10,122 nucleotides of DNA from an uncultured Lachnospiraceae bacterium (GTDB taxonomy: Bacteria > Bacillota > Clostridia > Lachnospirales > Lachnospiraceae). A program made the translations under genes and the position numbers. The DNA lies in contig CAUCOL010000035.1 of assembly GCA_958444395.1 (NCBI GenBank), forward strand, positions 1 through 10,122, given 5' to 3'. The number at the start of each line of letters is the position of its first letter. Position 1 is the stretch's first letter. Positions 1 through 10,122 of the stretch are shown piece after piece. The notes below the pieces were generated by a model. The model ran no database searches, had not been told where the DNA came from, and saw nothing but the letters and a program-made list of their open reading frames with translations.

Positions 1-237
1 GTTCGTTGCTCCCGGTCCGCTCGTTACCAGACATACGCCAACCTTTCCTGTGCTGCGTGCATATCCGTCCGCCGCATGGATCAGCGCCTGCTCATGACGT
101 GGAAGCACTACCTCGATATCATCCTGGTCATACAATGCATCGAAAATATCAATAGCCTGCCCTCCCGGATAACCAAATAAAATATCTACGCCTTCTTCTT
201 TTAAGGCTTTTACCAAAAGTTCTGTTCCTTTAATCAT
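1..237 (-). CDS. ilvB: Acetolactate synthase large subunit, N-terminal part (runs off left edge)
   Basis: This is the first 79 codons of a thiamine-diphosphate enzyme that condenses two pyruvates (or pyruvate plus 2-oxobutyrate) in the first common step of valine, leucine and isoleucine synthesis, in the cytoplasm. The visible protein begins [20 protein letters not shown] and carries the family's FGYPGGQAI stretch (residues 21-29), LPRHEQAL (45-52) with the conserved ThDP-activating glutamate at E49, the [15 protein letters not shown] block and SGPGATN at 73-79. The ATG at 237 is well supported, because GGAGG lies on the minus strand just upstream (about 247-251). A T-box leader with its own terminator precedes it, so expression should respond to uncharged tRNA of a branched-chain amino acid. 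Other ThDP enzymes share this fold, but the N-terminus together with the T-box makes the biosynthetic synthase by far the best call. Confidence 0.93.
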
Positions 238-332: not shown

Positions 333-363
333 AAAAAAGCCCTAAGCTGATACAGCTTAGGGC
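333..363 (-). terminator. T-box attenuator (intrinsic terminator)
   Basis: On the minus strand GCCCTAAGCTG, a short TAT loop, and CAGCTTAGGGC form an 11-bp perfect stem (363-339), followed directly by six Ts (338-333). It lies between the T-box core and the ilvB ribosome binding site, so it is the terminator that uncharged tRNA would disrupt. Confidence 0.92.
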
Positions 364-618
364 GAATCTACGATCCGTGTTACCACCTAAATTCAAAGAA
401 GATCTCTTTGCACTCATCCGATACGCCGACATCTCTGTCATCAATATCGTTCCTCCTGTAACGGTGAGGCTCCGTTGAAGTCTACTAAAGATTCTCTCTC
501 GTTCGGTCCACTGCTCGAAGGCTACTTCCATACCACCGGAATAAAGACTCGCACCATCCGTCTTCTCTCTCCTAATCCAGAGGGCATGTACTCCTCCTCG
601 TCAAAGCATTTTAATATT
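333..618 (-). promoter_or_regulatory. T-box riboswitch leader upstream of ilvB
   Basis: On the minus strand the leader contains the T-box core AGGTGGTAACACGG (388-375), which forms the antiterminator bulge that binds the tRNA acceptor end. Upstream are the elements expected of stem I: AGTA in a GGAGGAGTAC context, AGAGAG, and GGTGCGA in the distal part. Next comes a stem III-like hairpin AACGG-AGCCTCA-CCGTT (about 459-475). It ends in an intrinsic terminator that shares sequence downstream of the T-box core, which is the standard transcription-attenuation layout. The specifier codon could not be assigned with confidence by eye. An ATC (Ile) triplet sits on the 3' side of stem I at 492-490, but the pairing there is not convincing. 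From the downstream gene an Ile, Val or Leu specifier is expected. The 5' limit is inferred from the promoter. Confidence 0.9.
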
Positions 619-3481: not shown

Positions 3482-5449
3482 TTAATTTCCAAAGTTAAAC
3501 GGGAAGGATCCAAAGCCATCATAAGAATCACTGTTTCCGTCGTTCTGTCCGTCCTGTGAATCCCCATTGTTCTGTGAATCTCCATTGTTCTGTGAATCTC
3601 CATTGTCCCGTCCATTTCCGCCCTGACTGTTCTGCGTCGGTGCCGGTGATGCACTGCTGCCATCACTCAGGCTGTTCAGTGAAGAGGCTCCCTGTAATGT
3701 CACATCAACCTTCTGCTCTTTATATTCACCATCGGAATTTCGCTTCAATGTGATCGTTACCTTCGTGCCTTTTCGATAGCTGTTGGCTTTCTCCTTCAGA
3801 CTTTCGATCGTTGTAACCTGAATGCCATTGATCGCCGTAATGATATCGCCCTGTTTAATCCCTGCCTTGCCGGCAGCACCATCCTTTGCGACTTCTGCGA
3901 CATATACGCCGGTCGGCATATTAAAGGAAGCAGCTTCTTCTGTAACAGACTTTCCTGTAATGCCAAGATAGCCCTTCTCGTTGTCTTTCAAAACCTCTTT
4001 ATTCATCAGCTCATCAATGATCGGTGTTGCTTCCGAGATCGGGATTGCATACCCGACACCCTCAACAGAAGAAGCAGCGATTTTGGCAGAGTTGATACCA
4101 ATTACTTCGCCCTGCATATTCAAAAGTGCTCCACCACTGTTACCGGGGTTGATCGCTGCATCGGTCTGCAGCACCTTCATCTTCTGACCATTGCCTGTGT
4201 CCTGACCGGACTCTGAACTCTCTGTGATCTCGCGATCCTTAGCACTGATATAACCGACGGTTACAGACTGACCATAACCCAGTGCATTTCCGATAGCGAC
4301 TACCATCTCACCGACCTTTGCCTCTGAGGAATCTCCGAGTGCTGCGATACGGATCGACTTTAAGGTAGACTCCTTGATCGAGGTCAGTTTTACGGCAACA
4401 ACCGCAAGGTCTGCAGATGCATCTGTTCCTTTCTGCTCTGCCTCATATACCTCATTATCATAAAATTGCACCGAAATCGTCTTGGCACCCTCGATCACAT
4501 GATTATTTGTTGCGATCAACAGCTCTGTATCATTCTTGCCCACGATAAATCCGGAACCTGCACTACTGGTGTCGTCTCCCTGATAATACTGACCGAAAAG
4601 ATCATAATAATCCTGACCCTGCTGCGTACAGGTGATCGCTACGATCGACGGCATCGTGTTCCGCGCAATAGCAGATACATCCGCTGTTCCAATCGCACTT
4701 TCCGATGCCGGCAGTGTATATTTGACATTATCTGTCGTACCGGCAATATGTGTATTTGCCGCTGTCAGATTGACCCCCAGCACATGACTGGAAAACAGGC
4801 ACACCCCCTGAAAGCATACGGCTGCAACAACGCCAAACACGACTGCACACAAAGCGCAGATGCCGACCTTCTTCCAGGTCATTTTCCCCATTGGCTTATG
4901 CTGTCTGCCCGATCCCTGCGGTCCGGCACCATTTGCAGTACCACCATAGTTTCCATTTCCTCCGTTGCCGCCATTTCCACTCTGGTAACTGTAAAAAGGA
5001 TCCGACTGACTATTTGCTGACCCCTGACTTCCGCTCTGCGCCTGCTGCCAGCTGTTATTCTGCTCCTGATAAGACTGACCGGATGCCTGCCATCCGGCCT
5101 CCGTTCCACCACTCTGTGCATTGGAACCATTTGCCTGCTCTGTATCATTCCCATTTGCAGAAGACTGATATTTTGCGTTGTCATTTGCATAATAATCTCC
5201 GGAACGTGTTGCTGACTCCGGATGATCTTTATAAGAAAAGCTGTATACGGAGCTGACCGGTTCATCCTCTGTTTCTACGAAATTCCCGTATTCCCCTGTA
5301 TAATGCTTCTTTGCTGCTGTCTCTTCAGACGCCGTCTTCTCTGCAGTGTCTCCCTGTGCAGTCCCGCTTTGTCCCTCGCCTGCCTGCACTGCCTCATCTA
5401 CGTCTTTTTCATCGACTTCATTTGTAGCTTTCTTTTCCTTTTCGTCCAT
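3482..5449 (-). CDS. htrA: HtrA/DegP-like membrane-anchored serine protease with PDZ domain
   Basis: An envelope quality-control protease of about 655 residues. Numbered from this start, residues 1-190 form an acidic then Gln/Ser/Asn/Gly-rich, low-complexity cytoplasmic arm. Residues 194-219 are one membrane helix, containing several cysteines. The trypsin-like domain spans about 260-475 with the triad H317 (NNHVIEGA), D347 (ADLAV) and S438 (NPGNSGGAL). One PDZ domain follows at about 493-587 (GYLGITG to VDVTLQG), then a Ser/Asn/Gly/Asp-rich tail with a threefold DSQNNG-type hexapeptide repeat. The frame also has an ATG at 5467, but GGAGG stands five bases before the 5449 ATG while the upstream one has no good site. 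The protease acts on misfolded exported proteins outside the membrane. A promoter with an extended -10 and TTTCACA/TTTCATT boxes lies upstream. Such genes are commonly induced by envelope-stress two-component systems (CssRS in Bacillus). Confidence 0.93.
   Translation of the reverse strand: MDEKEKKATNEVDEKDVDEAVQAGEGQSGTAQGDTAEKTASEETAAKKHYTGEYGNFVETEDEPVSSVYSFSYKDHPESATRSGDYYANDNAKYQSSANGNDTEQANGSNAQSGGTEAGWQASGQSYQEQNNSWQQAQSGSQGSANSQSDPFYSYQSGNGGNGGNGNYGGTANGAGPQGSGRQHKPMGKMTWKKVGICALCAVVFGVVAAVCFQGVCLFSSHVLGVNLTAANTHIAGTTDNVKYTLPASESAIGTADVSAIARNTMPSIVAITCTQQGQDYYDLFGQYYQGDDTSSAGSGFIVGKNDTELLIATNNHVIEGAKTISVQFYDNEVYEAEQKGTDASADLAVVAVKLTSIKESTLKSIRIAALGDSSEAKVGEMVVAIGNALGYGQSVTVGYISAKDREITESSESGQDTGNGQKMKVLQTDAAINPGNSGGALLNMQGEVIGINSAKIAASSVEGVGYAIPISEATPIIDELMNKEVLKDNEKGYLGITGKSVTEEAASFNMPTGVYVAEVAKDGAAGKAGIKQGDIITAINGIQVTTIESLKEKANSYRKGTKVTITLKRNSDGEYKEQKVDVTLQGASSLNSLSDGSSASPAPTQNSQGGNGRDNGDSQNNGDSQNNGDSQDGQNDGNSDSYDGFGSFPFNFGN
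3554..3607 (-). repeat. Three tandem 18-bp repeats in the htrA 3' end
   Basis: Three consecutive units begin CTGTGAAT on the plus strand (3554, 3572 and 3590) and differ at single positions only. They encode the hexapeptide (D/N)NGDSQ three times in the low-complexity C-terminal tail of the protease. The near-identity at DNA level suggests recent slippage expansion and possible copy-number variation between strains. Confidence 0.85.
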
Positions 5450-5553
5450 ACTGGCCTCCGTTTCCATTCAGCTTTCACTGAATCCTTTTGTATCTGATGC
5501 ATCCTCTAAAACAAGCACCCAGTTCTAATACTCATTTTTGCATCGTACAGAAA

Positions 5554-5582: not shown

Positions 5583-5758
5583 GTAACAATGAAATGTGTC
5601 GTACTTGTGAAATCCCTCTTAAATTTTTTTAAAAACTAAAATTTCCCACACCCTGATGAGCAGTTACGATCCCACCATGCGGCGAGCTCAATATTTTTCA
5701 TCCAGGTTTACGCAGACTTATAAGCAAAAATCAGAATATAATTTGCAGGGGAATAGCA

Positions 5759-5787
5759 TTGCGATTTTCGGGCGAAACCATTATAAT
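5759..5787 (+). promoter_or_regulatory. Predicted sigma-A promoter of the sugar transferase / two-component cluster
   Basis: TTGCGA (5759-5764, 4 of 6 to TTGACA) is followed by a 17-base spacer and a perfect TATAAT (5782-5787). The predicted start is near 5794, about 69 bases before the TTG codon proposed as the start of the sugar transferase. It lies inside the open frame that reaches back to the ATG at 5656, which argues against that ATG being used. Confidence 0.6.
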
Positions 5788-5798
5788 AGAATCTTAGT

Positions 5799-5831
5799 AA
5801 CTGTCAGGAACCGTGCGGATACCAGACAGTT
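5799..5831 (+). other. Stem-loop in the 5' leader of the sugar transferase
   Basis: AACTGTC (5799-5805) and GACAGTT (5825-5831) are perfect 7-bp arms around a 19-base loop, placed just after the predicted transcription start and about 20 bases before the GAGG ribosome binding site. It may be a simple leader hairpin or an mRNA-stabilising structure. No known riboswitch class was recognised. Confidence 0.35.
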
Positions 5832-5862
5832 GCGACAGTATTTTGAAAGTGAGGATGAACTT

Positions 5863-7290
5863 TTGATTAGAGAGAACCAAAAATTACTGAATTTATTTCA
5901 TGTGATCATTGATGCGATCATTATTGCCGCATCTTTTATCCTTTCATATATATTGCGTTTTGATGATATGGGATTTCTGGTGACGCACCACATCATACCG
6001 GCTTCGATCGGCTATGTGAAACCGCTGCGGGACTATGTGAATATGCTGGTTTTCCTGATCCCCTGTTATCTGATCATTTACAACCTGTGCGATCTGTATA
6101 ACCCAAAGCGTACCAGCGGACGCCGGGCAGAGTTGTTTGGACTGATCAAGGCAAATTTTCTCGGTATCATTTACTGCGTGGCAGTGCTGTTCTTTATTAA
6201 GCAGCAGAACTATGCCCGTCTCTTCCTGGTCATGTTTGCGGTAATGAATCTGATGATTGATTTCTTCTTCCGCATGTGTATCAATATGATCCTGCGCAAA
6301 ATGCGTAAAAACGGCAAGAACCTCAAGCACATTCTTCTGGTCGGCTACAGCCGGACGGCAGAAGGCTATATCGACCGTCTCCGGGTACATCCGGACTGGG
6401 GATATTATGTACACGGGATCCTGGATGATACCAAGAAAACAGGAACTACCTATAAGAATATCTCGATCATCGGAAATACCAATATGCTGGAGGATCTGCT
6501 CAGCACCAATGCCTACGATGAGATTGTCATTACATTAAGCATTGATGAGTATTCCAAACTGGAACGCATCGTTTCTACCTGTGAAAAATGTGGTGTTCAT
6601 ACGAAATTTATTCCGGATTATAACCATGTGATCCCGACGAAGCCATATACAGAGGACCTCGATGGACTGCCTGTCATTCATATCCGTCATGTTCCATTGA
6701 GTTCGTCTCTGAACAATGCCGTAAAACGTCTGATCGATGTATTTGGTTCCCTGTTCGGACTGATCGTACTGGCGATCCCGATGGGTATCGTTGCCCTTCT
6801 GATCAAGATCACTTCGCCGGGACCATTGATCTTCAAGCAGACACGTATTGGTCTGCATAACAAGGAATTTCAGATGTATAAATTCCGTTCCATGCGTGTT
6901 CAGGAGGCATCCGAAGAGAAAAAAGCATGGACAACCGCCAATGATCCGCGTGTCACGCCGATCGGCCGTTTTATGCGTAAGACGAATATTGATGAACTGC
7001 CTCAGCTGGTCAATGTCCTGCTGGGAGATATGAGTCTGGTCGGTCCCCGTCCGGAACGTCCTTTCTTTGTCAATGAATTTAAAGAAAAGATCCCACGCTA
7101 TATGATCAAGCACCAGGTACGTCCCGGCATGACCGGCTGGGCGCAGGTAAATGGCTACCGCGGCGATACCTCAATCACCAAACGAATCGACTGTGACCTT
7201 TACTATGTAGAAAACTGGTCCCTGTGGCTGGATTTTAAGATTCTTTTCCTGACATTTTTTGGACGGAAAGTCAATGAAAATGCATATTAA
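5863..7290 (+). CDS. Polyprenyl-phosphate sugar phosphotransferase (exopolysaccharide/capsule initiation)
   Basis: This enzyme transfers a sugar-1-phosphate from a UDP-sugar to undecaprenyl phosphate in the membrane, the first step of a surface polysaccharide repeat unit. From this TTG start it has 475 residues, the usual length of WcaJ/CpsE-type transferases. Four N-terminal membrane helices fall at about 11-31, 59-76, 98-112 and 118-136. A Rossmann-like CoA-binding-type region follows at 156-231 (HILLVGYSRTAEGYI). The C-terminal bacterial sugar transferase domain spans 284-475 with KFRSMR, the catalytic DE motif in NIDELPQ (377-378), GDMSLVGPRPE and RPGMTGWAQVNG. The frame is open back to an ATG at 5656, which would add 69 residues. 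That extension has no ribosome binding site, uses rare Arg codons (AGG, AGA, CGA, CGG) unlike the rest, and contains a good promoter. GAGG lies eight bases before the TTG. The sugar is not identifiable; glucose or galactose phosphate is typical. Confidence 0.88.
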   Translation: MIRENQKLLNLFHVIIDAIIIAASFILSYILRFDDMGFLVTHHIIPASIGYVKPLRDYVNMLVFLIPCYLIIYNLCDLYNPKRTSGRRAELFGLIKANFLGIIYCVAVLFFIKQQNYARLFLVMFAVMNLMIDFFFRMCINMILRKMRKNGKNLKHILLVGYSRTAEGYIDRLRVHPDWGYYVHGILDDTKKTGTTYKNISIIGNTNMLEDLLSTNAYDEIVITLSIDEYSKLERIVSTCEKCGVHTKFIPDYNHVIPTKPYTEDLDGLPVIHIRHVPLSSSLNNAVKRLIDVFGSLFGLIVLAIPMGIVALLIKITSPGPLIFKQTRIGLHNKEFQMYKFRSMRVQEASEEKKAWTTANDPRVTPIGRFMRKTNIDELPQLVNVLLGDMSLVGPRPERPFFVNEFKEKIPRYMIKHQVRPGMTGWAQVNGYRGDTSITKRIDCDLYYVENWSLWLDFKILFLTFFGRKVNENAY

Positions 7291-7321: not shown

Positions 7322-8872
7322 ATGAAAATACGTACCCGTTTAATCCTGTCCTTTCTGATCCTGATCTTTTTCCCATTTCTTACAATGGGTATCTGTGCCA
7401 ATATCATCCTTTCACAGCAAAGCACGATATTGGCAGATTCCTATCAGACAGATATCTCTGCTTCTTCCTTTTTATTTAATCCTTTACATGTCCTGTATAC
7501 AACAACCATGAAGGATTACAATGAACTGGTCGAGCTGGCAGATGAATCACCGGATGAATTTGCCGATAAGGAATTTCTGCGTCGATTAAATCAGATGCTG
7601 AATCAACGTTACTCCTTCCTGATCGTCCGGATCGCAAATGAAGATTATTTCATCGGAAATTCTGCGATCTACAAGAAAATGGATAAACTGCCGGACTTTG
7701 GTGACTATAATACCGGTTCTCGCAATACGATGATCATCGACCGTTCGATCCCCGGACTGATCAAATCAAAGGATTTCTATTTTACTGACCATAGTTGCGG
7801 CCAGTTCTATCTGATCACAGATCTGAACCATCTGCAGCCTACCTGGGAACATTCGATCAAAAAACTGATCGCCATGATGGCATGTATCATCGTGCTCACT
7901 GCACTCGGTCTGGTGATCTGGCTCTACCGCAGCATCGTCAAACCAATGAATGTACTGCGTATCGCTACGATGCAGATCGGTGCCGGCTACCTCGCTAATC
8001 CGGTTCCGGTTCCTTCGACTGATGAGATTGGAGAGCTGTGCCGTGACTTTGAAGAGATGCGGATCCGGTTAAAGGAAATGATCGACGAACGCATGCGCTA
8101 TGAGCAGGATACCCGCGAAATGATCAGCAGTATGGCACATGACCTGCAGACTCCGCTGACATCGATCAAAGGCTATGCTGAGGGCATTCTGGATGGTGTC
8201 GCCAATACGCCGGAAAAACAGCAGAAATATGTCCGTACGATCTACTCTAAGGCATCGGATATGAGTTATCTGGTAGATGAGCTCTCTATTTTTGCAAAGG
8301 TAGAACAAAATACACTTCCCTACCATTTCATTCCGCTCAATCTGCACAGCTATTTTCAGGACTGCATCACAGAATTTTCATTGGACATGGAGACAAAACA
8401 TGTTACAATGACATATGAAAATACATGTTCTGAGGACACTGTGGTGCTGGCAGATCCTGAGCAGCTGAAACGTGTCATTAACAATATTATCGGAAATGCA
8501 GAGAAATATATGGACAAAGATGCCGGTACGATCACTATCCGCATCCAGGATGTACCACTGCCGGCTCCGGTCACACCGCTCTACCGTCAGTTGAATGACG
8601 ATGGTACGGAAGTCGAAGATGCCATGCATCCTGATGAGTTTGTCCAGGTCGAGATCCGGGACAATGGTCCCGGCATTGAAGCCAAAGATCTCCCTTATAT
8701 CTTCCATCGGTTCTTCCGTGCGGATGCTTCCCGAAATTCTTCCAAACGGGGCAGTGGACTGGGACTGGCGATCGTCGCCCGCATTATCGAAGACCACGGT
8801 GGCAGAGTCTGGGCACAGAGTACCCTGGGAGAAGGCACCAGCATCTTTTTTACATTAAAAAAACAGGTATGA
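7322..8872 (+). CDS. Sensor histidine kinase, two-helix membrane type with HAMP
   Basis: A 516-residue two-component sensor. Membrane helices fall at about 8-30 and 181-201, so an extracytoplasmic sensing region of about 150 residues faces outside, with no recognised ligand motif. HAMP follows at 202-254. The HisKA helix carries the phospho-acceptor H273 in MAHDLQTPLTSIKGY. The HATPase domain has the N box NNIIGNAEKY (387-396), the G1 box RDNGPGI (446-452), the F box FHRFFRAD (461-468) and the G2 box GSGLGLAI (477-484). A loop of about 30 residues, Pro- and acid-rich (409-438), is inserted between ATPase strands. All catalytic motifs are intact. It starts 31 bases after the sugar transferase stop with GGTGG upstream, and the regulator follows 33 bases later, so the three are probably co-transcribed. 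Sensor-before-regulator order is the less common one. The signal is unknown; an envelope signal is inferred from the neighbours. Confidence 0.93.
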   Translation: MKIRTRLILSFLILIFFPFLTMGICANIILSQQSTILADSYQTDISASSFLFNPLHVLYTTTMKDYNELVELADESPDEFADKEFLRRLNQMLNQRYSFLIVRIANEDYFIGNSAIYKKMDKLPDFGDYNTGSRNTMIIDRSIPGLIKSKDFYFTDHSCGQFYLITDLNHLQPTWEHSIKKLIAMMACIIVLTALGLVIWLYRSIVKPMNVLRIATMQIGAGYLANPVPVPSTDEIGELCRDFEEMRIRLKEMIDERMRYEQDTREMISSMAHDLQTPLTSIKGYAEGILDGVANTPEKQQKYVRTIYSKASDMSYLVDELSIFAKVEQNTLPYHFIPLNLHSYFQDCITEFSLDMETKHVTMTYENTCSEDTVVLADPEQLKRVINNIIGNAEKYMDKDAGTITIRIQDVPLPAPVTPLYRQLNDDGTEVEDAMHPDEFVQVEIRDNGPGIEAKDLPYIFHRFFRADASRNSSKRGSGLGLAIVARIIEDHGGRVWAQSTLGEGTSIFFTLKKQV

Positions 8873-8905: not shown

Positions 8906-9595
8906 ATGGCAAAAATATTGATTATTGAGGATGAAACAGCGATTGCTGAACTGGAAAAAGATTATCTCGAATTAAGTGATTTTGAAGTAACAATGGAAAA
9001 GGACGGAAGCAGCGGTGCTGCCAGAGCACTGGATGAGAATTTCGATCTGATCATTCTGGATCTGATGTTACCGGGTATGGACGGCTTCGAAATCTGTAAA
9101 CTGATCCGTGAAAAGAAAAATACACCGATCATCATGGTATCTGCCAAGCAGGATGACATTGATAAGATCCGTGGTCTGGGTCTGGGCGCTGATGATTATA
9201 TGACAAAGCCATTCAGTCCCAGTGAACTGGTAGCGCGTGTAAAGGCACATCTGGCGAGCTATCAGCGGCTGACCACCAGCCAGCAGCCGGAGAACGATAT
9301 CATCGAGATCCGTGGTCTGAAGATTGATAAGACTGCCCGCCGCGTCTATGTCGATGGTAACGAAAAAGCATTTACAACGAAGGAGTTTGACCTGCTGACC
9401 TTTCTTGCAGAGCATCCAAACCATGTGTATACGAAGGAAGAACTCTTTAAAGAGATCTGGGAAATGGAATCGATCGGAGACATTGCAACAGTAACCGTCC
9501 ATATCAAGAAGATCCGTGAAAAGATCGATGATTCTTCTTCCCAGCCAAAATACATCGAAACGATCTGGGGTGTGGGCTACCGTTTCAAACTATAG
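8906..9595 (+). CDS. OmpR/PhoB-family response regulator
   Basis: A 229-residue DNA-binding regulator, the standard length for the family. The receiver domain (1-115) has the acidic pair E8-D9, the phospho-acceptor D52 in LILDLMLPG (one residue type apart from consensus), S79 in MVSAK and K101 in MTKPFSPSEL. The linker is Gln/Ser-rich, and the winged-helix domain at about 130-229 shows TTKEFDLLTFLAEHPNHVYTKEELF, a TVTVHIKKIREKI recognition helix and the closing ETIWGVGYRFKL wing. It is the partner of the kinase immediately upstream. GACGGA five bases before the ATG serves as a modest ribosome binding site. OmpR-family regulators bind direct repeats about 10-11 bp apart. TGTGAA-type boxes of that kind occur 260 bases downstream and a single similar box occurs before htrA, but a link to this regulator is inference. 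It could be PhoP-, ResD- or CssR-like, and residues alone do not decide. Confidence 0.95.
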   Translation: MAKILIIEDETAIAELEKDYLELSDFEVTMEKDGSSGAARALDENFDLIILDLMLPGMDGFEICKLIREKKNTPIIMVSAKQDDIDKIRGLGLGADDYMTKPFSPSELVARVKAHLASYQRLTTSQQPENDIIEIRGLKIDKTARRVYVDGNEKAFTTKEFDLLTFLAEHPNHVYTKEELFKEIWEMESIGDIATVTVHIKKIREKIDDSSSQPKYIETIWGVGYRFKL

Positions 9596-9691
9596 GATGC
9601 GCAGAACATAAACTGCGAAATGGCAGAGAATGGATTGTGTACAAAGGCAAAATGGATAAAACAACAAGAATATAGAATCAAATCAGCAGAA

Positions 9692-9732
9692 GGCGGTGAG
9701 AATATCCTATTGTATTCTCACCGCCTCCTCTT
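9692..9732 (+). terminator. Terminator after the two-component genes
   Basis: GGCGGTGAGAATA (9692-9704) and TATTCTCACCGCC (9713-9725) form a perfect 13-bp stem around an 8-base loop, followed by TCCTCTTT. The stem is very stable though the T-tract is interrupted. It lies 97 bases after the regulator stop and has no T-run on the other strand, so it terminates plus-strand transcription. Confidence 0.85.
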
Positions 9733-9748
9733 TCCATATAAAATGCGC

Positions 9749-9779
9749 AAAAATAAAAGAGCTGCTCTCGCAGCCCTTT
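9749..9779 (-). terminator. Intrinsic terminator of the candidate sRNA (or of the downstream permease gene)
   Basis: On the minus strand AAAGGGCTGC (9779-9770), a GAGA tetraloop of the GNRA type, and GCAGCTCTTT (9765-9756) make a 10-bp stem with one G-U pair. TATTTTT extends the U-tail (9755-9749). The orientation is minus only, because the plus side lacks a T-run. It could also terminate read-through from the permease gene that ends at 9987. Confidence 0.8.
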
Positions 9780-9838
9780 AAAGGAGAAGGTATGAAAAAA
9801 AATTTTAAGCACTTATCAAATGTTTTGCTTCATTTGAT
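9749..9838 (-). ncRNA. Candidate small regulatory RNA, about 90 nt
   Basis: The minus strand shows a full transcription unit without a convincing ORF. A TTGGCA-16-TATAAT promoter places the start at A9838. The RNA would open exactly with a stem-loop (ATCAAATG, 8-base loop, CATTTGAT; 9838-9815). A U-rich single-stranded stretch with eight Ts follows, then CCTTCTCCTTT (about 9789-9779), complementary to a strong Shine-Dalgarno sequence, and finally an intrinsic terminator (9779-9749). Gram-positive trans-acting RNAs often use such C/U-rich anti-SD stretches on target mRNAs. Inference: an sRNA that represses translation, possibly controlled by an OmpR-family regulator through the upstream boxes. 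I did not recognise a named family. The competing reading is a 19-codon plus-strand ORF in the same DNA. Confidence 0.5.
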
Positions 9839-9851
9839 AAGTTCATTATAG
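9792..9851 (+). CDS. Possible 19-residue small protein (uncertain)
   Basis: The plus strand has AAAGGAGAAGGT directly before an ATG and a short frame MKKNFKHLSNVLLHLISSL ending in TAG. The product would have a basic N-terminus and an amphipathic or hydrophobic remainder, like many membrane-active small peptides. Against it: no plus-strand promoter is visible between the strong terminator ending at 9732 and this ATG, the frame is built largely from a 12-bp inverted repeat (9811-9842), and the same bases make up a good minus-strand RNA gene. No family was recognised. I rate it as less likely than the antisense RNA reading, but the two are not exclusive. Confidence 0.25.
   Translation: MKKNFKHLSNVLLHLISSL
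9811..9842. repeat. 12-bp perfect inverted repeat
   Basis: ACTTATCAAATG (9811-9822) and CATTTGATAAGT (9831-9842) flank an 8-base spacer. Eight of the pairs make the 5' stem-loop of the candidate minus-strand RNA. The outer pairs extend into the promoter's discriminator region. The AT-rich symmetry would also suit a dimeric repressor site. Confidence 0.8.
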
Positions 9852-9872
9852 GGATGATTTGTGAACTGCCAA
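9845..9872 (-). promoter_or_regulatory. Strong sigma-A-type promoter on the minus strand (candidate sRNA)
   Basis: TTGGCA (9872-9867, 5 of 6 to consensus), a 16-base spacer and a perfect TATAAT (9850-9845) predict a start near A9838. No protein-coding frame of note follows on this strand before the terminator at 9779-9749. Confidence 0.6.
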
Positions 9873-9902
9873 TGATGAACTTGTAAAGAATTTGTGAACA
9901 AT
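9857..9902. promoter_or_regulatory. Candidate OmpR-family operator: TGTGAA/TGTAAA boxes on an 11-bp lattice
   Basis: A 10-bp direct repeat ATTTGTGAAC occurs at 9857-9866 and 9890-9899. With TGTAAA at 9882-9887 the core hexamers start at 9860, 9882 and 9893, multiples of 11 bp apart (the 9871 slot is degenerate). On the minus strand these read TTCACA, TTTACA, TTCACA, which fits the TTNACA-type half-sites described for Bacillus PhoP. Two boxes lie 10-26 bp upstream of the -35 of the minus-strand promoter, where an activator of this family would bind, and the third lies in its spacer. Confidence 0.45.
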
Positions 9903-9986
9903 TAGAAACTTTTGTCTTTTTTCGTACATATTTATAGATTTTGCAGAAAATAGCAGTCCGCTACCTTTGTCTATCCTTCCGCATAA

Positions 9987-10122
9987 TCATTCCGACGATA
10001 ATGTGATCGTATAGAGTGTCTGGATCAGGATCACACCAAACGGTCCCAGAAAAATACCGCCGATACCAAACAGCAGGATCCCAATATAGATTGCTGCTGT
10101 CATAAAGAACGGAAGGAGCCCC
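9987..10122 (-). CDS. AI-2E/YtvI-type membrane permease, C-terminal end (runs off right edge)
   Basis: The minus-strand frame entering from the right edge gives 44 residues, LLPFFMTAAIYIGILLFGIGGIFLGPFGVILIQTLY and a short polar tail, then TGA. The pattern is hydrophobic, with an aliphatic helix containing YIG-LLFGI-G-FLGP. It matches the last helices of the AI-2E transporter superfamily (YtvI, PerM and relatives), whose C-terminus typically reads GLxGLxLGPxxxA. These are polytopic inner-membrane proteins, some acting in sodium/proton exchange, some tied to sporulation (YtvI). Too little is present to choose a subfamily. No T-run terminator lies immediately after the stop; the first minus-strand one is 208 bases on, at 9779-9749. 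Confidence 0.7.
   Translation of the reverse strand, partial: GLLPFFMTAAIYIGILLFGIGGIFLGPFGVILIQTLYTITLSSE

Follow-up and report, generated by a model that had tools for sequence, protein, structure and literature searches.

A conserved small RNA gene with its own phased operator beside a two-component system in Lachnospiraceae, predicted to block translation initiation

Background

Small RNAs (sRNAs) directed against translation initiation and controlled by two-component systems were known beforehand from streptococci (csRNAs) and from Listeria (LhrC). C-rich-seed sRNAs of Staphylococcus also pair with Shine-Dalgarno (SD) sequences through C-rich stretches; their seeds are located in loops, they depend on other regulators and they are not known to possess an anti-AUG extension.

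According to the sections of the papers cited here, the csRNAs are activated by CiaR via TTTAAG-N5-TTTAAG, with NTTAAG-N5-TTTAAG as promoter repeat (PMC3091779). They form two hairpins and leave an anti-SD/anti-AUG stretch open (PMC3091779, PMC8186281), measure 87-151 nt in S. pneumoniae and are reported to pair with comC and pilT mRNAs (PMC8186281). A nonamer, [A/C]UCCUAAA[A/C], follows the first hairpin in all but four csRNAs, while their anti-initiation regions are described as poorly conserved; the recognition helix of CiaR is given as VVEVYVSKVRKKL, and orthologues of CiaH are, in the same sections, reported only in streptococci (PMC3091779). The gene htrA belongs to the CiaRH regulon (PMC8317062). 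In Listeria, LisRK is needed for the five LhrC copies under cell-envelope stress, which induces them, and LhrC binds lapB mRNA and impedes its translation, as stated in the cited part of the respective study (PMC4132741).

The present analysis deals with 10,122 nucleotides of an uncultured Lachnospiraceae bacterium (contig CAUCOL010000035.1 of assembly GCA_958444395.1), the whole stretch being referred to as the window. From the letters alone, an original prediction had proposed an undescribed-looking sRNA gene with an anti-SD seed on the minus strand at 9745..9902. Among the literature titles and beginnings of abstracts listed, with subscription journals and preprints outside the search, no such sRNA was found described in Lachnospiraceae.

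Results and discussion

Gene and predicted fold of the sRNA

The features of the locus are compiled in Table 1. All elements originally claimed for 9745..9902 were recovered at their places, including the 10-bp terminator with 4-nt loop (9779..9756) and the 5' stem-loop, the latter folding with 9 bp instead of the proposed 8. The fold of the sRNA, in which an open middle separates the 9-bp 5' hairpin from the 10-bp terminator, has a free energy of -23.0 kcal/mol compared with a mean of -13.5 for shuffled sequences (z -3.5; equalled by 0 of 200 shuffles). The core CATACCTTCTCC matches exactly in 40 of the 42 family members described below. Two copies, at L147 6001-6115 (-) in genome G433 and at L150 6001-6090 (+) in G432, display by eye an apparent extra hairpin in the interval between core and terminator.

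Table 1 Features of the window at and around the predicted sRNA gene
Feature	Position	Strand	Basis and remarks
HtrA-like serine protease (Trypsin_2, PDZ), second proposed regulon member	3482..5467	-	Pfam
htrA-side direct repeat TTCACA-N5-GACACA, 11-bp phase, related to the sRNA operator	5595..5611	-	
Undecaprenyl-phosphate sugar phosphotransferase (WcaJ type), heading the presumed operon that includes kinase and regulator	5656..7290	+	
Sensor histidine kinase (HAMP, HisKA, HATPase_c)	7322..8872	+	Pfam
OmpR-family response regulator (Response_reg, Trans_reg_C), proposed activator whose gene converges on the sRNA	8906..9595	+	Pfam
sRNA, ~86 nt	9754..9839	-	Fold and covariance-model family; predicted ends 9838-9839 (5') and, within the U-tail, near 9754-9747 (3')
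Intrinsic terminator stem-loop with a downstream U-rich tail reaching ~9747	9756..9779	-	10 pairs, 4-nt loop
Anti-initiation core UUUUUUCAUACCUUCUCCUUU, predicted single-stranded	9780..9800	-	Anti-AUG CAU and anti-Shine-Dalgarno UCUCCUU
Linker GUGCUUAAA, U-rich, immediately 3' of the 5' hairpin	9804..9812	-	GCUUAA in 32/42 members
5' hairpin, 9 bp (9839-9831 with 9822-9814)	9814..9839	-	Fold and covariation
-10 box TATAAT	9845..9850	-	6/6 in 33/42 members, 5/6 in 9
Predicted operator	9860..9898	-	Half-sites TTCACA 9898-9893, TTTACA 9887-9882, degenerate 9876-9871, TTCACA 9865-9860
AI-2E-family-like permease, 3' end, partial	9987..10122	-	Assigned by eye; L001 has a full-length relative; adjoins the sRNA upstream and shares its strand

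Distribution and covariation of the family

In a scan with the response regulator, from which the best 80 of the loci listed were taken, the closest among the matches listed was L001 (84 % identity of the regulator), where the RNA immediately follows the regulator gene and shares its strand. An exact 16-mer of the core was found at 14 places in 13 of 397 genomes of the family Lachnospiraceae, the reversed pattern at 4. Five of these 14 places, two of them in one genome, represent sRNAs with hairpin, terminator and promoter; the other nine are without sRNA features, and several look by eye like the reverse complement of gene starts.

A covariance model, which contains no promoter, was built from the window and the five sRNAs of the exact-core search. 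Searching 99 relatives of one genome with it (E<=0.01) yielded 35 places in 24 genomes, 34 of these places belonging to a single genus, in which 23 of 28 genomes are represented. The sRNA was also detected in 3/3 and 4/4 genomes of two further genera, whereas a draw of 299 family genomes under stricter filters contained 6 with a match (close members in 4, distant ones in 2); the family is therefore common in a few genera and rare elsewhere. Together with the window, 42 close members in 31 genomes were collected. Two matches were left out of the counts, namely L173, which scored 34.9 bits and has no operator, and L249, which is matched in part at the end of a contig. Genomes carry up to four copies: among the 23 copy-bearing genomes of the genus, 2 to 4 were found in 7 and one in 16. 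Two of the four copies of G435 have an identical offset on two contigs and may be assembly doubles.

For the analysis of covariation, the 42 close members were aligned with the distant members L250 and L251, both of which have another core and are excluded from the 42. Within these 44 sequences, 98.7 % of cells are paired, as compared with 27-52 % in controls with slid partners, and 14 of 16 pairs show double changes, amounting to 88 double-change cells versus a shuffled mean of 19.7. Helix 1 (5' hairpin) has 98.5 % of cells paired and double changes in 6 of 8 modelled pairs, helix 2 (terminator) 98.8 % and 8 of 8; the sequence of the terminator stem varies freely with its pairing kept. The alignment was fitted to the model and thus leans towards it, and since the aligned sequences are related, the double changes do not count as independent events. 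The comparison with related genomes proposed along with the original prediction has thereby yielded 42 close members with covarying stems and a conserved promoter. Conservation, covariation and promoter together uphold the claim that the minus strand contains an independent sRNA gene with an anti-initiation core. At the level of sequence comparison, the locus is an RNA gene that is conserved and structured and has a conserved predicted operator and -10 box of its own; its expression is predicted.

Promoter and phased operator

The promoter TTGGCA-16-TATAAT of the original prediction is present (11/12 matches, joint best of 25 in a scan of the window), and its -10 box is conserved, whereas the -35 hexamer is weakly kept. 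Of six possible matches to the latter, the 42 members possess one in 7, two in 5, three in 16, four in 11 and five in 3 cases. A perfect -35 hexamer occurs in 0/42 and at most 3 matches in 28/42; the share with at least 4/6 is 14/42 (33 %) versus 17 % of shuffles. The -35 hexamer is slightly above chance and poor for a constitutive promoter.

The conserved promoter element, absent from the earlier reading as are the connection with the regulator and htrA and the resemblance to csRNA and LhrC, is composed of 11-bp-phased TTYACA-like half-sites. TTnAYA-N5-TTnAYA-N16-TTCAYA is present upstream of 42/42 members, two of which have TTCATA at the first half-site. The half-sites are positioned at 0, 11 and 33, and position 22 is occupied by a block of weaker conservation; this arrangement suggests that two tandem OmpR-type dimers would bind on one helix face. 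The -10 box, for which the best among ten offsets from the third half-site was taken, lies 9 nt behind this half-site in 36/42 members. Phased half-sites combined with a weak and variable -35 hexamer are the signature of a predicted activator-type operator.

In a strict form, the half-site pattern was detected at 35 places in the 28 genomes of the genus, comprising 32 of the 34 sRNA promoters and 3 places elsewhere (reversed-pattern control, 3). Among loci L001-L038, only L001 matched. A matrix built from 37 sites, the window's own included, scored 51.6 at the sRNA site of the window, the next best place reaching -1.8 and the 95th percentile of 100 mononucleotide shuffles -1.4. In 1.2 Mb of G433, the sRNA promoter of which is itself among those behind the matrix, the respective site scored 44.3 and the next place, within a gene, 15.5.

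A distant member at L250 1501-1598 (-), scoring 49 bits with the sRNA model, is preceded by three 11-bp-phased TTCACA half-sites. Across 707 kb (window, L002-L039, L081-L094, L250 and L251), at least three phased half-sites occur only at the window's sRNA and at L250, with 0.33 expected from shuffles, and L250 thus supports the predicted operator in a further lineage. Its core reads CATATTCATAACTCCCCC, so the core can change. An ORF beside the L250 sRNA, contained in L312, resembles by eye an AI-2E permease.

Adjacent regulator and gene neighbourhood

The end of the regulator gene is ~158 nt away from the sRNA in the window. Over the family, a regulator gene lies at most 350 nt from 16 of the 42 copies, in both orientations, this number being made up of 12 copies from a set of 38 matches, which contains the window and the excluded L173, and 4 of 5 further members; the fifth, L319, has its regulator ~3 kb from the sRNA. 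Among the 16 copies close to a regulator gene, the two genes converge in four (window, L170, L172 and L318) and run in the same direction in the remaining twelve. Orthologues of the regulator (>=80 % identity) were identified in 24 of the 28 genus genomes, one of them partial. Of these 24 genomes 21 possess the sRNA, as do 2 of the 4 without a regulator hit (G423 and G429); a regulator and no sRNA were found in G427, G442 and G444. Incomplete assemblies may account for the imperfect co-distribution. Loci L002-L033 and L038, which carry relatives of the regulator, contained no convincing sRNA; many relatives outside the genera considered above thus possess the regulator and, within the loci fetched, no member of the sRNA family.

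Regulation by the adjacent regulator best explains that the linkage survives changes of orientation and that the operator is kept at copies located elsewhere. There is thus strong reason to assume that the OmpR-type regulator activates the sRNA through putative binding to the phased half-sites. Among the best 25 matches listed for each of regulator and kinase, curated protein families provided no equivalog above cut-off; solved structures include relatives of the regulator such as RegX3 and MtrA, none of which settles its site.

The gene order sulfatase, htrA, sugar transferase, kinase, regulator, sRNA, permease is common to the window and L315, with sRNA and permease reversed in L315 relative to the window. 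Between regulator and sRNA, a palindrome GGCGGTGAGAAT...ATTCTCACCGCC at 9690-9725 of the window is, by eye, possibly the terminator hairpin of the operon. Two further RNA elements were encountered. A T-box leader (RF00230; 111.7 bits, above cut-off) at 355-613 (-) of the window precedes a partial ORF (237..1, -) resembling, by eye, acetolactate synthase, and a TD-2 RNA match at L081 2518-2613 (+) scored 43.7 bits, slightly under the cut-off of 48.7.

A related site upstream of htrA

In the window and relatives, the gene for an HtrA-like protease is divergent from the sugar transferase-kinase-regulator genes. TTCACA-N5-nnCACA, likewise phased at 11 bp, was found upstream of htrA in 7 of 9 divergent loci, as compared with 0.06 % of shuffled regions; the nine loci are related and do not represent nine independent tests. 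Of the two remaining loci, L171 has no htrA repeat, while L175, negative in the motif search, has one visible in the matrix scan. The best placements of the sRNA matrix overlapping the htrA repeat score -8.0 in the window and 7.6 in G433, in another register. The htrA repeat is a putative site related, not identical, to the sRNA operator and fits the sRNA matrix poorly.

Relationship to csRNAs and LhrC

As far as the cited sections describe the csRNAs, the present sRNA resembles them in having two stem-loops which flank an open anti-SD and anti-AUG stretch (according to fold and covariation), a short motif behind the first hairpin and, shortly before the -10 box, an 11-bp-phased direct repeat for an OmpR-family regulator, the assignment of the regulator being putative here. 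The csRNAs are present in several copies per genome; in the present family, 2 to 4 were found in 7 and one in 16 of the 23 copy-bearing genomes of the genus. As in the CiaRH system, htrA would belong to the regulon. The particulars differ, again relative to what these sections report: TTTAAG-N5-TTTAAG in csRNAs is opposed to TTnAYA-N5-TTnAYA with a third half-site 22 bp further, and the recognition helix of CiaR to TVTVHIKKIREKI (placed by eye) in the regulator of the window. The csRNA nonamer and GUGCUUAAA occupy the same place with different sequences. The core is exact in 40/42 members here and poorly conserved among csRNAs, and the hosts are Clostridia instead of Streptococcus.

The best Rfam match at the sRNA of the window is csRNA (RF02379), which aligns over the whole model length at 9838..9754 with 35.7 bits and so stays under the gathering cut-off (57 bits). 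A csRNA match at the sRNA was obtained for 13 of 20 homologous loci (31.1-49.5 bits, ten with at least 40, none over the cut-off). Searched genome-wide, 32 relatives gave a top csRNA score of 38.3. These values, the full-length alignment and the placement of the linker like the csRNA nonamer would fit a true, divergent csRNA that goes back to an ancestor shared by Bacilli and Clostridia and has since come under another regulator. Such an origin is nevertheless unlikely: no locus reaches 57 bits, 7 of the 20 are without csRNA match at E<=5, and sub-threshold matches are unspecific, occurring at E<=1 in 10 of 32 relatives and also in 4 of 14 control genomes, one of them an archaeon. G001, moreover, carries a true member of the present family and yet no such csRNA match, operator (TTYACA-like, not TTTAAG) and recognition helix are different, the sRNA is present in 6 of 299 family genomes drawn, and short C/U-rich two-hairpin RNAs may converge. 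Since four csRNA/CiaRH tests had a negative outcome (score, operator, nonamer and recognition helix), the sRNA was filed as a separate family. "Undescribed-looking" accordingly holds for the family, whereas the architecture is that of the Rfam csRNA.

As a search tool, the Rfam csRNA model returned 14 sub-threshold places in 10 of the 32 relatives and was dropped, these being mostly unconvincing by eye. Two csRNA-like candidates without firm support are L251 1501-1589 (-), with core CATAACAACTCCCCC, hairpins and no phased half-sites seen, and L082 1501-1611 (+), with 35.0 bits and AACACA-N5-AACACA upstream; the latter belongs to the genome of L032, the regulator orthologue of which has 76 % identity.

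LhrC1-5 are multicopy sRNAs that are likewise C/U-rich and two-component-dependent, the dependence being a predicted one for the present sRNA. According to the cited part of the Listeria study, LhrC has three redundant CU-rich sites, one of them in the terminator loop, and a length of 111-114 nt, unlike the ~86 nt found here; no LisR consensus was known at that paper's time, and no anti-AUG core was seen in LhrC as presented there (PMC4132741). LhrC was not among the 14 Rfam matches (E<=10) at 9600-10000, presence of its model in the library being unconfirmed. By analogy, the circuit would work like CiaR-csRNA and LisR-LhrC with a separate RNA family.

Proposed mode of action

The locus probably encodes a dedicated, two-component-controlled sRNA which would block translation initiation. 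The kinase would activate the adjacent response regulator, which in turn, as operator and linkage strongly suggest, would bind the phased TTYACA-like half-sites and bring in RNA polymerase at a promoter whose -10 box is good and whose -35 hexamer is weak. The gene specifies the RNA of ~86 nt delimited, as comparison shows, by 5' hairpin and intrinsic terminator. Its open CAU-ACCUU-CUCCUU core may pair with the Shine-Dalgarno sequence and start codon of several mRNAs and exclude ribosomes, i.e., the sRNA would act in trans as a translational repressor. The same regulator presumably drives htrA, so that one envelope signal, probably envelope stress, would raise a quality-control protease and lower the synthesis of a set of proteins.

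The target search with the seed that the original prediction had suggested yielded no excess of complements over the reversed-pattern control. In the 28 genus genomes, the 17-nt complement of the core with at most 1 mismatch was found at 37 places (32 sRNAs and 5 others), an exact 12-mer complement at 24 non-sRNA places versus 34 for the reversed pattern, and complements with at most 3 mismatches at 956 versus 1348. Duplexes of at least -14 kcal/mol strength were obtained in 1.2 Mb of one genome for 185 of 1022 start regions versus 27 of 938 gene interiors; shuffled cores gave a mean of 139 and a maximum of 213 start regions, close to the 185 of the real core. No target is named because this duplex ranking provided no list distinct from that of shuffled cores.

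The near-invariant core complements the idealised initiation region AAAGGAGAAGGUAUGAAAAAA with a Met-Lys-Lys start of the exported type. This leads to the tentative, rather doubtful extension that the sRNA could act as a general brake on the synthesis of secreted and membrane proteins under envelope stress, with HtrA raised simultaneously. Among 693 genes with ATG and Shine-Dalgarno sequence (1.2 Mb, one genome), the best-pairing 100 are 24 % signal- or membrane-like versus 15 % overall, and 30 shuffled cores gave a mean of 17 % and a maximum of 23 %; this enrichment, obtained from one genome with a crude classifier, lends weak support to a general brake.

The near-invariance of the core across paralogues and species, set against the missing excess of near-perfect complements, and the conservation of the linker in addition to the core would also suit an RNA acting mainly by another route, e.g., by titrating ribosomes or a protein via linker and core instead of pairing with specific mRNAs. 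That route appears quite improbable, as the core spells anti-SD and anti-AUG with natural spacing, as in the csRNAs which the cited part of the literature reports to pair with comC and pilT mRNAs (PMC8186281).

Its location in the window, with the regulator gene on one side and the permease gene on the other, and a permease adjoining in many loci could mark the element as a 3' UTR-derived or terminator element of either operon with no separate function. This is very improbable: operator and -10 box of its own are present in 42/42 members, orientation varies, and 20 of the 38 matches (L173 included) have none of seven query proteins, permease and regulator included, in the fetched stretch. The statement that the sRNA is more than the permease 3' UTR is consequently strengthened, many copies being located away from the permease gene and orientation varying. 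A plus-strand small-protein gene (AAAGGAGAAGGT-ATG-AAA-AAA, 19 codons), of whose ribosome-binding site the core would be the reverse complement, has in its favour a good ribosome-binding site and ORF in the window and the nine exact core matches resembling no sRNA, but is scarcely conceivable, since the peptide varies from 3 to 30 aa (at most 5 aa in 19/42), an A-run of 6 to 9 shifts the frame, the start codon is lost in one of 42, the arrangement of operator, -10 box, hairpin and terminator follows the minus strand, the stems covary, and the ORF, the codon conservation of which had been named beforehand as speaking against an RNA, is not conserved whereas stems and promoter are. On the sense strand, closed ORFs within the RNA comprise at most 20 codons.

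Conclusions

The preferred reading of the locus remains a two-component-controlled sRNA predicted to block translation initiation. The same shape of circuit, with htrA in the presumed regulon and with another operator and another RNA, suggests that such a circuit may be a recurrent solution to envelope stress and not a streptococcal peculiarity. For gut Lachnospiraceae, a defined RNA, a predicted operator and a proposed regulator are now available for study.
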